Source: Campylobacteraceae bacterium (lineage in GTDB: Bacteria > Campylobacterota > Campylobacteria > Campylobacterales > Sulfurospirillaceae). Taken from it: 30,541 nucleotides of DNA. The position numbers and the translations under genes are program-made. Positions within the stretch are counted from its first letter, which is position 1. Every line of letters begins with the position of its first letter. Under the pieces are notes generated by a model. It ran no database searches, was not told the origin of the DNA, and was given only the letters and a program-made list of their open reading frames with translations. Shown here piece by piece: positions 17,180-20,992 of this stretch. The stretch is taken from the NCBI GenBank assembly GCA_027040375.1, contig JALUMJ010000105.1, positions 1 to 30,541 on the forward strand, read 5' to 3'.

Positions 17180-17785
17180 ATGAAAATAACTCTCTTACAA
17201 CATACATCTTTAGAAGTTTGTGCAAGTGCCATACGAACTTGCTGGCAAAGTTTTGACAAAAGCGACGGTGGCGGTGAAAAAGACAAAGAACTCATAAATA
17301 GAGTTGGCAATAAATTTAAACACGCCTCTACACTTGAACATTTGGTATATACATTTTATATACAAGGAATCAGCCGAGCACTTCTGCAAGAACTTGCAAG
17401 ACATAGACTCGCATCACTCTCAGTGAAAAGTACTAGATATACTCTAAAAGAGCTTAAAATCGAAAATATCTTTACATGTAGAGAGTTTGAGCGAGCTAGT
17501 AAATATCTTGTCATGACAGGGCAAGAAAAAGTGGATGAGATGAGTATAAAAGCTTTAGAAAATTTAAGACTTATCTTAAAAGATGGTATAAGCAATGACA
17601 AGGCAAAATATTGTCTGCCTGAGAGTTATAAAACTGAGCTTACTTGGACTATAAATGCAAGAAGTTTACAAAACTTTTTAACCCTAAGAAGTAGCAAATC
17701 AGCCCTTTGGGAGATACAGATTTTAGCTCACAAACTCTATGAAAACCTGCCATTTGAGCATCAATACCTTTTTACATGTGATTAA
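17180..17785 (+). CDS. thyX: flavin-dependent thymidylate synthase ThyX
   Basis: The 201-residue protein contains the ThyX motif [11 protein letters not shown] at residues 74-84 (R-H-R-x7-S), preceded by [20 protein letters not shown] and followed late by [20 protein letters not shown], the pattern seen in ThyX C-terminal helices. It methylates dUMP to dTMP using FAD and methylene-tetrahydrofolate, replacing ThyA, as in most Campylobacterota. It sits between flgE and the origin region. Its 3' end overlaps the convergent ruvC by 14 bp. Translation may be controlled by the hairpin ahead of the start codon. Confidence 0.94.
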
Positions 17786-18251
17786 CTTTTACCCCATTTG
17801 CATAAGTTAAAGCTATGGCTATGGCATCAGTTATATCAAGAGGTTTAATCTCCTGTTTTATACCTAAAATTCTCTTAACCATAAACGCTACCTGCTCCTT
17901 CTTTGCCTTTCCATTTCCTGTTACTGCTTTTTTGACTTGAAGTGGTGTAAACTCGTGAAAATTTCCTATAACCTGAAGTATCTTTAAACTCAAAGCACCC
18001 CTAAACTGGGCGAGTTTAAGGACAGTTTTAGGATTATGTGCGTAAAACATATCTTCTATAACAACTTCATCAATTTTATGATTTTTAAAGATGATATCCA
18101 AGCCTTCTGTTAGCTCTACTATCTGATGTTGGAGGATTTTTTCTTTGATTTTTATGAGACCTGCTTCTATAAGCTTTGTTCCATTTTTTTCTTTTTTAAT
18201 AATCGCATATCCACAATTTCTTGTACCGGGGTCTATGCCTAATATAGTCAT
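17772..18251 (-). CDS. ruvC: Holliday junction endonuclease RuvC
   Basis: The 159-residue protein has the RuvC catalytic tetrad in the right places: D7 in LGIDPGT, E66 in VVIEDMF, and D139 and D142 in [10 protein letters not shown]. It cuts Holliday junctions with RuvAB during recombinational repair. The gene reads away from dnaA, and its promoter region coincides with the upstream DnaA-box cluster, so DnaA might influence its transcription (inference). It overlaps the thyX end by 14 bp in convergent orientation. No strong Shine-Dalgarno sequence is evident; AAAGG lies about ten bases upstream. Confidence 0.95.
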
Positions 18252-18261
18252 TCTTTAGCCT

Positions 18262-18302
18262 TTATTCACATATTTATTCACACCGTGAAAATCTTTTTCA
18301 CA
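18262..18302 (+). other. upstream DnaA-box cluster (oriC, part 1)
   Basis: Two perfect TTATTCACA boxes stand at 18262-18270 and 18274-18282, exactly 12 bp apart, and a near match TTTTTCACA at 18294-18302, all in the same direction. A weaker inverted match (TTTTCACGG, read leftward) overlaps 18283-18291. Boxes on both sides of dnaA are known for bipartite origins of Campylobacterota. Confidence 0.8.
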
Positions 18303-18303
18303 T

Positions 18304-18394
18304 AATGTCTGTATAACTTTAAAACTATTTCGTGAGGCTCAGACCGCAGGGAGGATTTGTCTCTAAGAAATAGTTTTAAAGTTATACAGACATT
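18304..18394. repeat. perfect 28-bp inverted repeat with 35-nt loop, upstream of dnaA
   Basis: The left arm 18304-18331 (starting AATGTCTGTATAAC) and right arm 18367-18394 (ending GTTATACAGACATT) are exact reverse complements over 28 bp. The loop 18332-18366 is clearly richer in GC than the surroundings and holds CCGCAGGGAGGA; a short inner pairing of AGAC with GTCT is possible. The arms contain no obvious DnaA box. It could be a cruciform element of the origin, a structured RNA in the dnaA leader, or a small inserted element with terminal repeats. I do not recognise it. Confidence 0.9.
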
Positions 18395-18434
18395 TTAACA
18401 TATAACTAATAATATTTTAGATAAAATAAGTCAA

Positions 18435-18450
18435 TATAATGTTAAGGGGA
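18435..18450 (+). promoter_or_regulatory. TATAAT and Shine-Dalgarno sequence before dnaA
   Basis: TATAAT at 18435-18440 is followed almost directly by AAGGGGA at 18444-18450. If this hexamer is the -10 box, transcription would start near 18447, inside the ribosome-binding site, so another start upstream is likely. AAGGGGA supports the TTG start of dnaA at 18455. Confidence 0.45.
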
Positions 18451-18454
18451 ATTT

Positions 18455-19783
18455 TTGTTAGCAGATAATGTATTGGAACTTTTAAAAAATGAAATATCTG
18501 AACAAGAATATCAAAGGTATATAAAACAACTCTCATTTGACGAAAAAAATTCACACTCTGATCAGAAAATCTTTAATGCTCCGAATATTTTGATAAAAAA
18601 TTGGATTCAAACAAAATATAGTGAAAAGATATCTCACCTTTTTGAAGTAAAAACGGGCAAAAAACCAAGTATAAAAATCACTTTAAAAAATGATATTTTA
18701 AAAACAAAACAAAACAAAAAATCTATAAGTAAAACAGATTTAGAAATCCCAACTCCAAATACCATACTTAACCCTTCATATACTTTTGAAAGTTTTGTAG
18801 TAGGAAGTTCAAACCAGTATGCTTATTCTGTGGCAAAATCTGTGGCAAAAAAACCTGGAGTCGTATATAATCCTGTATTTATATATGGGCCAACTGGGCT
18901 TGGAAAAACTCACCTTATACACGCTATTGGTAATTTTTCACAAGCAAATGGTAAAAATGTGATATATGCTACTATTGAGCAGTTTATGAATGATTTTACT
19001 TATAATTTAAAAAATCAAACGATGGATAGATTTAGAGACAAATATAGAAAATGTGATGTTTTACTCATAGATGATACACAATTTTTGTCAAATAAAATTC
19101 AAACTCAAGAGGAATTTTTTCATACTTTTAATGAATTACACTCTGCAGGAAAACAGATAGTTTTAACTTCAGACAAACCTCCTAAGATGATAAATGGGCT
19201 AGAAGAAAGATTAAAGAGTAGATTTGAGTGGGGAACTGTAGCAGATATTGGATTGCCTGAACTTGAAACTAAGATAGCCATCATTAAAAAGAAGTGTGAA
19301 TTAGATGGAATCGACTTAAATAATGAAGTAGCAAATTATATAGCAGTAAATATGGGCGATAATATAAGAGAAATAGAAGGTGCTATCATCAATCTAAATG
19401 CGTATGCTACTTTGATGCGTCAAGAGATAACTATAGATTTTGCAAAAAATGTTATGAAAGCTCAGATAAAAGAGAAAAAAAATCATATAACCTTAGAAGA
19501 TATAATCAAAGTAATTTCAAGAGAATTAAATATAAAACCAAGTGAAATAAAATCTAAAAAAAGAAACAAAAACATAGTAGAAGCAAGAAGAATTGGGATA
19601 TATTTAGCAAGAACACTAACACCAAATTCTATGCCTCAACTTGCATCATTTTTTAGTATGAAAGACCATACTGCAGTTTCACATAATATGAAAAAGATAA
19701 ATCAATTAATAGACGAAAATGAAGCATTTAAATTAAGAATAGAAGAGTTAAAAAACAAAATATTAATAAAAGAAGTAAAATAA
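18455..19783 (+). CDS. dnaA: chromosomal replication initiator DnaA
   Basis: The 442-residue protein has all DnaA domains: domain I (residues 1-80), a short lysine-rich linker, the AAA+ domain with Walker A GPTGLGKT at 145-152 and Walker B LLIDD at 203-207, and domain IV with the DNA-binding signature DHTAVSHNMKKI. The start is TTG at 18455, supported by AAGGGGA four bases upstream; no in-frame ATG is nearby. DnaA binds its boxes on both sides of its own gene here and melts the origin. Box-bearing DNA upstream also suggests autoregulation. Confidence 0.98.
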   Translation: MLADNVLELLKNEISEQEYQRYIKQLSFDEKNSHSDQKIFNAPNILIKNWIQTKYSEKISHLFEVKTGKKPSIKITLKNDILKTKQNKKSISKTDLEIPTPNTILNPSYTFESFVVGSSNQYAYSVAKSVAKKPGVVYNPVFIYGPTGLGKTHLIHAIGNFSQANGKNVIYATIEQFMNDFTYNLKNQTMDRFRDKYRKCDVLLIDDTQFLSNKIQTQEEFFHTFNELHSAGKQIVLTSDKPPKMINGLEERLKSRFEWGTVADIGLPELETKIAIIKKKCELDGIDLNNEVANYIAVNMGDNIREIEGAIINLNAYATLMRQEITIDFAKNVMKAQIKEKKNHITLEDIIKVISRELNIKPSEIKSKKRNKNIVEARRIGIYLARTLTPNSMPQLASFFSMKDHTAVSHNMKKINQLIDENEAFKLRIEELKNKILIKEVK

Positions 19784-19924: not shown

Positions 19925-20992
19925 ATGAAAGTTTCTATAAATAAAGGCGTATTGGAAACAATACTTATAAATGTACAACCATATTTAGAAAAAAAAGATT
20001 TAAGTCAAATTACATCTCATATATTTATAAATACTGTAGAAGATGAATTTATAGCAAAAGCAACTGATTTTGAAATTGGACTTAGTTATAATACTAAAAA
20101 TGTAAAAATATTAGACCATGGAACTGCTACAGCAAATGGTAAAAAACTTCTTGATATTATTAAAATCTTAAAAGATGAAGATGTTACACTTGAAACAATA
20201 AATGATAATTTATATATAAAACAAAATAGTTCAAAATTTAAACTTCCTATGTTTAATATAAATGAATTTCCAAGCTTTCCACAGATAGAGGATAAACCAA
20301 AATTTGATATAAATAGCTCTTTATTTGTAAGATCAATTAAAAAAATTGCACCTTCAATAGATAGCAATAATCCAAAATTTGAATTAAATGGTGCTTTAAT
20401 AGATATAAAAGATAATTTTATAAATTTAGTTTCAACAGATACTAGAAGATTAGCACTTGTTAAAATAGAAAAAAATACTGAAGATAATTTTTCTTTAATC
20501 ATCCCAAAAAAAGCTATAAGTGAGATACAAAAACTTTTTTATGATGAAATAGAGATTTTTTATGATGAAAATATTCTTATAGCAAAAGCTTCAAATTTTC
20601 AATTTTATACAAAACTAATAAATGGAAAATTTCCAGATTACGAAAGAATCATTCCAAAAGAAAAAACTTATAGATTACTTCTAAATAGAAATAAAATTAT
20701 AGAAGCTATAAAACAAGTATCTATAATTTCACATGAAATGAAAATCACATTTAAACAAAATAAAATTGTATTTGAAAGTTTAAATGATGAAAATATAGAA
20801 GCAAAAATAGAGATAGAATATAATACAGGATTAGATAATGAGATATATCTAGCAACAAACAGCAGATATTTGATAGATTTTTTATCAAATATTGAAAATA
20901 ATGATTTTACTTTAGGCTTTAACGATAGTTCTCTTCCATTTACACTAGAAGATGAAAATTTTACAACAATAGTTATGCCTATAATGATATGA
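19925..20992 (+). CDS. dnaN: DNA polymerase III beta sliding clamp
   Basis: The 355-residue protein has the threefold-repeated clamp domain architecture and family sequences such as KATDFEIGLSY, FKLPMFNINEFPSFPQ and VSTDTRRLALVKIE; the last five residues IVMPI end the protein as in other clamps (VVMPM-like). It encircles DNA and tethers polymerase III. AAGGAG lies nine bases before the ATG. Position directly after dnaA and the unwinding region, and ahead of gyrB, is the standard origin gene order. The base composition is even more AT-rich than the flagellar genes. Confidence 0.97.
   Translation: MKVSINKGVLETILINVQPYLEKKDLSQITSHIFINTVEDEFIAKATDFEIGLSYNTKNVKILDHGTATANGKKLLDIIKILKDEDVTLETINDNLYIKQNSSKFKLPMFNINEFPSFPQIEDKPKFDINSSLFVRSIKKIAPSIDSNNPKFELNGALIDIKDNFINLVSTDTRRLALVKIEKNTEDNFSLIIPKKAISEIQKLFYDEIEIFYDENILIAKASNFQFYTKLINGKFPDYERIIPKEKTYRLLLNRNKIIEAIKQVSIISHEMKITFKQNKIVFESLNDENIEAKIEIEYNTGLDNEIYLATNSRYLIDFLSNIENNDFTLGFNDSSLPFTLEDENFTTIVMPIMI

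Follow-up and report, generated by a model that had tools for sequence, protein, structure and literature searches.

The region examined lies in a 30,541-bp stretch of contig JALUMJ010000105.1 (the window), in which NCBIfam models place RuvC at positions 17775 to 18251 on the reverse strand, followed on the forward strand by DnaA (18455 to 19780) and DnaN (19925 to 20989). Between the first two genes, 52 nt from ruvC and 60 nt upstream of the dnaA start codon, a 91-bp hairpin occupies positions 18304 to 18394 of the forward strand, on which its parts are also given. An earlier note had described two exact 28-bp arms enclosing 35 nt, and this was borne out: the left arm (18304 to 18331) and the right arm (18367 to 18394) are perfect reverse complements, where composition alone predicts about 3e-9 perfect 28-bp repeats with a spacer of up to 200 nt in the window. 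The loop is also richer in G+C (0.54) than the arm (0.21) and the surroundings at 18200 to 18455 (0.30), as had been stated. This loop region (18332 to 18366, GTGAGG...TCTCTAA) contains at 18338 to 18359 a conserved core, CTCAGACC-GCA-GGGAGGATTTG, delimited by an alignment of 75 family copies, pair counts, and pairwise identities as 19 conserved positions around a variable trinucleotide (NNN). Compared with the other family copies, the inner part of the left arm, TTTAAAACTATTTC, resembles the inner-arm consensus, and its outer part departs from TAGACTTCTT.

Folded as RNA or as DNA, on either strand, the sequence forms one long hairpin with a z-score of approximately -10 or -11 relative to shuffled sequences. 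The 35-nt loop is correct as a length, but its single-stranded part is shorter, owing to extra inner pairing in the predicted RNA fold. Just outside the hairpin, and not part of it, are DnaA-like boxes at 18262 to 18302 (two of TTATTCACA and one TTTTTCACA, forward strand). The hairpin does directly follow the last upstream box, at a distance of one base (TTTTTCACA at 18294 to 18302) rather than the two given previously, and the arms lack a DnaA box, containing merely two-mismatch resemblances. A search of positions 17800 to 18700 against Rfam returned four matches, all below the gathering score, and a known Rfam RNA family was set aside.

The hairpin is a member of a dispersed family. The earlier note had proposed a search for copies in the genome and its relatives; run with the 91-bp query, it returned 12 rows from the same genome (G000), corresponding to 11 places since one copy was matched on both strands, plus copies in congeners, as expected of a repetitive or mobile element. 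A covariance model (R1) likewise found 11 places. By BLAST, the family is present in 11 of 41 genomes and in 8 of 10 within the genus, while R1 detected it in at least 29 of the 298 genomes sampled from the order, at least 13 of 81 genera, and six families; with strict filters and no more than 18 candidates scored per genome, these counts are a lower bound. A near-exact core pattern matched 8 of 298 genomes of the phylum. Among the genomes behind 76 of 80 dnaA loci compared, R1 identified carriers in 4 of 30 and 2 of 46. Carriers known by name include those of L026 (Campylobacterota bacterium M_MetaBat.86), L031 (Sulfurospirillaceae bacterium STCSWMC_226), L058 and L069 (both labelled Sulfurospirillum sp.), L044, and L047. 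Genome G008 has at least 22 matches (22 of 53 candidates scored), and 14 copies were counted in G040, a genome of two contigs. Of the 82 rows, 81 place the copy outside any called reading frame. No BLAST match was obtained in plasmids or phages and no exact core in viral contigs, so carriage by phage or plasmid was set aside. A literature search, with subscription journals outside its coverage, found no paper on this hairpin family in the text available to it.

Several arrangements of copies deserve mention. At the end of contig G004:C235 (L183), the core forms a direct tandem repeat, recurring about every 95 nt. Oppositely oriented copies, paired at approximately 90 to 250 nt from centre to centre, occur at L202, L205, L206, L207, L135, and L182, and L179 resembles a single core joining the outer arms of both L182 copies. 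A further dispersed repeat, approximately 115 bp long (GTAGGGACTTTGAGTCCCTGCC...), lies in the right flank of L126 and has numerous matches across G000, G001, G002, G006, and G007.

The position of the hairpin, between DnaA-like boxes and dnaA and shared by three congeners, invites a reading as a cruciform or hairpin that promotes unwinding at oriC1 or controls it. The available part of one study (PMC5043019) puts oriC1 of class members at this location, which by analogy would place the hairpin in the oriC1 area, in the upstream half of the origin region. However, the same source places the unwinding element of the studied relatives between dnaA and dnaN, and the same family occurs at many sites away from the origin, at unrelated gene starts. 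At the dnaA site itself, the congener G006 (locus L026) has a shorter stretch without the hairpin, and no core (allowing up to three substitutions) is present in any of the 80 dnaA loci (L026 to L105). The role in origin opening raised by the earlier note is thus not supported, and an origin cruciform, which we consider scarcely credible, was set aside. No origin function is indicated: the hairpin is ordinary as an origin feature and unusual as an element.

Alignment of 75 of the 82 rows (all except L127, L131, L170, both rows of L172, L179, and L183) revealed a core of CTCAGACC-NNN-GGGAGGATTTG closed by GAGR/YCTC, followed by arms that vary in sequence from copy to copy while complementarity is kept. 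In the structure so defined, 94.3% of cells pair and 204 cells show two-sided change, compared with a mean of 45 after shuffling; controls in which the pairing was slid reached at most 64.9% of cells pairing and 76 cells with two-sided change. The number of pairs with any two-sided change was hardly lower in the slid controls (10 to 15 vs 16). Counts of mismatches, core identity, and similarity to insertion sequence ends used 77 of the 82 rows, with one row of L184, L170, one row of L172, L179, and L183 omitted for low stem scores, and copies L112 and L120, which have no anchor, were left out of the arm comparison by anchor. Between copies within a genome (seven genomes), the 19 core positions are 84 to 98% identical, a figure to be read with the caveat that the copies were found via their core, and NNN is 38 to 73% identical. 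The arms of G040 copies are 34 to 39% identical, compared with 32% for shuffled arms. As NNN, an internal yardstick, varies beside the kept core, the copies are not simply recent. Across five orthologous G000/G007 pairs, differences were counted at 9 of 95 core positions, a level similar to that of the flanks.

Arm mismatches on the core strand are biased toward G-T (34) over A-C (9) at 60 sites with one copy each (p=0.0002), with 13 to 1 in G040 and 5 to 5 in G000. This excess points to folding of the core strand as RNA or single-stranded DNA. A double change from C-G to T-A adjoins NNN in four copies (L109, L175, L177, and L218). Taken together, a conserved core beside a variable NNN and variable arms, and the G-T excess, ask for a constraint that a plain miniature inverted-repeat transposable element (MITE) does not predict. 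As a separate observation, a variant core in which GGCTCGTGAGC replaces GGCTCAGACC occurs in four copies from four genomes (L108, L129, the second copy of L135, and L173); this variant is a local palindrome and, judging from its sequence, has the look of a small product of template switching. The sequence GGCTTTAGCC occurs in L168 and L180.

Comparison of orthologous sites indicated where copies are present or absent. Copy L112 is present in G000 and its site is cleanly empty in G007 and G006, L154 is present in G008 and cleanly empty in G002, and the site of L117 is cleanly without the element in a congener. L126 is present in G007 and cleanly empty in G000, where deletion between AGGTAA repeats would also be possible. 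At L119, L127, L145, L152 (in G006), L160, and L166, the element is absent and a short, unlike sequence stands instead; presence or absence is partly clear at L002, L111, and L121, and L108, L118, L120, L146, and L148 were uninformative. At the dnaA site, G000 and G007 share the hairpin, and in G001 the loop of the hairpin is inverted and one of its arms contains additional sequence. We also considered whether the arms were derived from the target or from a pre-existing palindrome. This was rejected: the outer-arm sequence is missing at the clean empty sites of L154 (in G002) and L112 (in G007), so the arms arrive with the element. The arms of young-looking copies read TAGACTTCTTnnAAAACTATTTC, and possible target duplications are TA beside GACTTC in several young copies and TAA or AGGTAA at single sites. 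A different palindromic element of approximately 200 bp with ends AGACTTGTTGTGATATA begins near position 240 of L295 (G003:C295), almost exactly where the G008 copy L154 has its hairpin; the ends of this element resemble AGACTTCTT of the hairpin.

A candidate partner for mobility was found in one congener. In G008 (contig C63, L309:1448-2357), a 910-bp insertion sequence with inverted ends TAGACTTCTTGCATAAC contains two open frames that match IS5-family models, namely NF033581 (both pieces, each below the whole-protein cut-off), HTH_Tnp_4, DDE_Tnp_4, and DDE_Tnp_1. The first frame has 519 relatives at E ≤ 0.001, and it is 147 amino acids long in most of its closest homologues too, which suggests from the sequence that L309 is a normal two-frame insertion sequence. 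The best copy, L126, matches the L309 end at 16 of 17 bases, and among the 77 copies, 19 left and 20 right arms reach at least 12 of 17, compared with 0.45% of shuffled arms. In addition to the multiple places in the genome and the empty sites in congeners, this IS5-family element with similar ends upholds the option of a small non-autonomous mobile element that the earlier note had listed. DDE_Tnp_1 was found at 14 places in 10 of 18 genomes, with matching ends at L309 alone, and the genome of the window has no match to DDE_Tnp_1 or DDE_3. Against mobilisation of this kind in G040, only 1 of 11 copies there reaches 12 of 17, and none of the three transposase families searched (Y1_Tnp, DDE_Tnp_1, and DDE_3) is present; with arms unlike the insertion sequence end and no such transposase, mobility in that genome is unexplained by an IS5 partner. 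An IS630-type partner was rejected, as DDE_3 occurs in 2 of 18 genomes and there is no matching end pair at the two loci. A search with the arm-end pattern gave counts near those of the reversed control except in G008, and no insertion sequence is shown by the pattern alone.

An alternative route of spread is that of REP-like elements, moved as single-stranded hairpins by a Y1 (RAYT) transposase. The hairpin form, the intergenic placement, the inverted pairs approximately 90 to 250 nt apart, and the strand-specific mismatch preference would all be in keeping with it. However, the carriers G003, G004, G040, and G266 have no Y1_Tnp, 12 of the 13 non-carriers searched do have it, and by eye there is no conserved tetranucleotide at the hairpin foot. 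A RAYT partner, whose presence does not track the element, was set aside, and we hold this route to be highly improbable. The preferred reading is that of a non-autonomous element with an IS5-type partner.

The orientation of the loop also differs between orthologues. Relative to its flanks, the loop is inverted in 6 of 10 ortholog groups and 8 of 17 pairs, the L179/L182 group being excluded from this count. The inverted groups are the dnaA site, L109/L125, L107/L128, L106/L176, L110/L129, and L167/L161, and no inversion was found in L113/L130, L168/L180, L114/L123, or L122/L178. Between G000 and G007 alone, 3 of 5 shared copies differ in loop direction. A further flip, of L206 relative to L202, was recognized by eye in another family, beside a gene that we take to be argG. 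One explanation of such frequent inversion is an invertible, phase-variable switch driven by a recombinase. The arms are not conserved in sequence, unlike what would be expected of recombinase sites, and a spacer of approximately 35 nt is short for a recombinase synapse; we therefore judge a recombinase to be very unlikely.

Template switching offers another explanation. As far as the accessible parts of the two reports go, template switching between the arms of an inverted repeat homogenises the arms and inverts spacers (PMC8604942), and it creates and maintains RNA hairpins, with loop inversions (PMC8794818). The inversions described in those parts are short, 2 to 5 bp in yeast and up to 7 to 8 nt in rRNA (PMC8604942, PMC8794818), compared with 35 nt here. 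On our comparison of orthologues, template switching is the likeliest mechanism of loop inversion: after insertion, switching between the arms would re-make near-perfect arms and flip the loop. The earlier statement that perfect arms suggest selection or a young insertion is accordingly incomplete, since it omits a third cause, arm homogenisation by template switching, to which the inverted loops point.

Many copies are close upstream of gene starts. In the 82 rows, both neighboring genes are directed against the core in 34 cases, the genes diverge in 24, both run with the core in 15, and they converge in 5; the remaining rows have one side unknown (3) or lie inside a called frame (1). With one copy per site (60), the corresponding numbers are 25, 20, 11, and 2. 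The shortage of convergent sites is only suggestive because divergent gaps are usually longer. An intrinsic terminator was rejected in view of the 5 convergent rows, the low G+C content of the arm (21%), and the presence of only TTTT across the stem end. Among start codons within 80 nt, 47 of 75 are 12 to 28 nt from the element (35 of 59 with one copy per site). A -10-like box within 12 nt of the far base was found at 30 vs 19 sites in all copies (61 stretches); counted by stretch, the gene strand has 27 vs 16 of 61 (p=0.013), and with one copy per site the bias is 23 vs 16 of 50 (p=0.09). A loose -10 consensus did not discriminate (45 vs 41 of 75). It is plausible that copies sit in mRNA leaders.

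Replication strand was also considered. In G040 (G040:C1), 12 of 14 copies have their core on the lagging-strand side (p=0.013), as do 7 of 8 in G141 (G141:C1, p=0.07), with the replication arm called from GC skew in 20 sampled stretches each. The two genomes belong to one genus and may therefore have copies in common. For 22 copies of G008, local skew gave no strand bias. The direction of genes could cause the lagging-strand bias.

A placement in leaders raises the possibility that the core strand is a selected RNA leader, folding into a motif that a protein or the ribosome recognizes by binding and that influences the neighboring gene. This would fit (i) a core well kept within genomes beside a variable NNN and, in G040, arms near the shuffled level, (ii) the preference for G-T over A-C mismatches and the double change beside NNN in four copies, and (iii) the short distance of most nearby starts from the element. 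In contrast, relative to nearby gene starts the core is in antisense orientation in 44 of 75 cases (36 of 59 with one copy per site), and it flips at orthologous sites, such that either strand would be in mRNA; the -10-like box is only weakly strand-biased with one copy per site; and core positions in the G000/G007 pairs change about as much as the flanks. Covariation and the G-T preference leave some room for a structured RNA of the kind suggested in the earlier note, but at dnaA the 60-nt distance from the start codon speaks against it. We regard a selected RNA leader as unlikely overall. A combined version, in which a mobile family installs a selected loop motif upstream of gene starts, this motif folds on one strand and thereby produces the G-T excess, and template-switch flips are rapid enough to serve many genes as a recombinase-free orientation switch, seems decidedly doubtful.

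The explanation that we consider probable as a whole is that the hairpin is a non-autonomous, MITE-like foldback element of the Campylobacterales that is moved in trans and whose loop is flipped by template switching. An IS5-type transposase would mobilise the hairpin through its arm ends, and the copy near dnaA may have been acquired by an ancestor of the three sampled congeners, in the upstream half of their origin region, or may have been lost in the others, and would be tolerated at the origin. The conserved core would then be something that the element requires in cis, either to spread or to behave as it does near gene starts. With its dozens of equivalent hairpins, the family offers a natural setting in bacteria for following template switching. 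Here, inverted loops accompany the kind of paired arm changes that are usually taken as proof of RNA structure. A warning for similar cases is that even a perfect inverted repeat located at an origin may be no more than a mobile passenger. If the loop does act near gene starts, the family would represent a regulatory motif that is mobile and carries its own direction switch.

Among the known systems close to this one are MITEs. Like them, the hairpin family is short, non-coding, and dispersed, differs in presence between congeners at orthologous sites, and has inverted ends similar to those of an autonomous IS5-family insertion sequence, as in L126 and L309 of G008, although not in G040. Unlike in MITEs, the arms reach almost to the centre and make a single hairpin of the entire element, 19 core positions are kept while the arms drift, the loop inverts often, and there is no clear target duplication. 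The REP/BIME elements associated with RAYT, as portrayed in the available part of PMC2817692, are also palindromes between genes with some inverted pairs, but several carriers of the hairpin have no Y1 transposase and its conserved part is the loop. Dispersed palindromes of Neisseria and Yersinia go by the names NEMIS/Correia and ERIC. The dispersed palindromes of these two genera that affect mRNA (PMC2267715, as described in its accessible part) are alike by description in that they are hairpins outside genes that may act at the RNA level. Lastly, the template-switch hairpins, including the small inversions of chloroplasts, share near-perfect arms kept through paired changes and inverted loops (as far as the accessible parts of PMC8604942 and PMC8794818 describe them), and loops inverted between orthologues with the arms kept were found here both in the ortholog groups counted above and in the dnaA alignment; the difference is that the present hairpins form a dispersed family with a 35-nt loop containing a conserved core.
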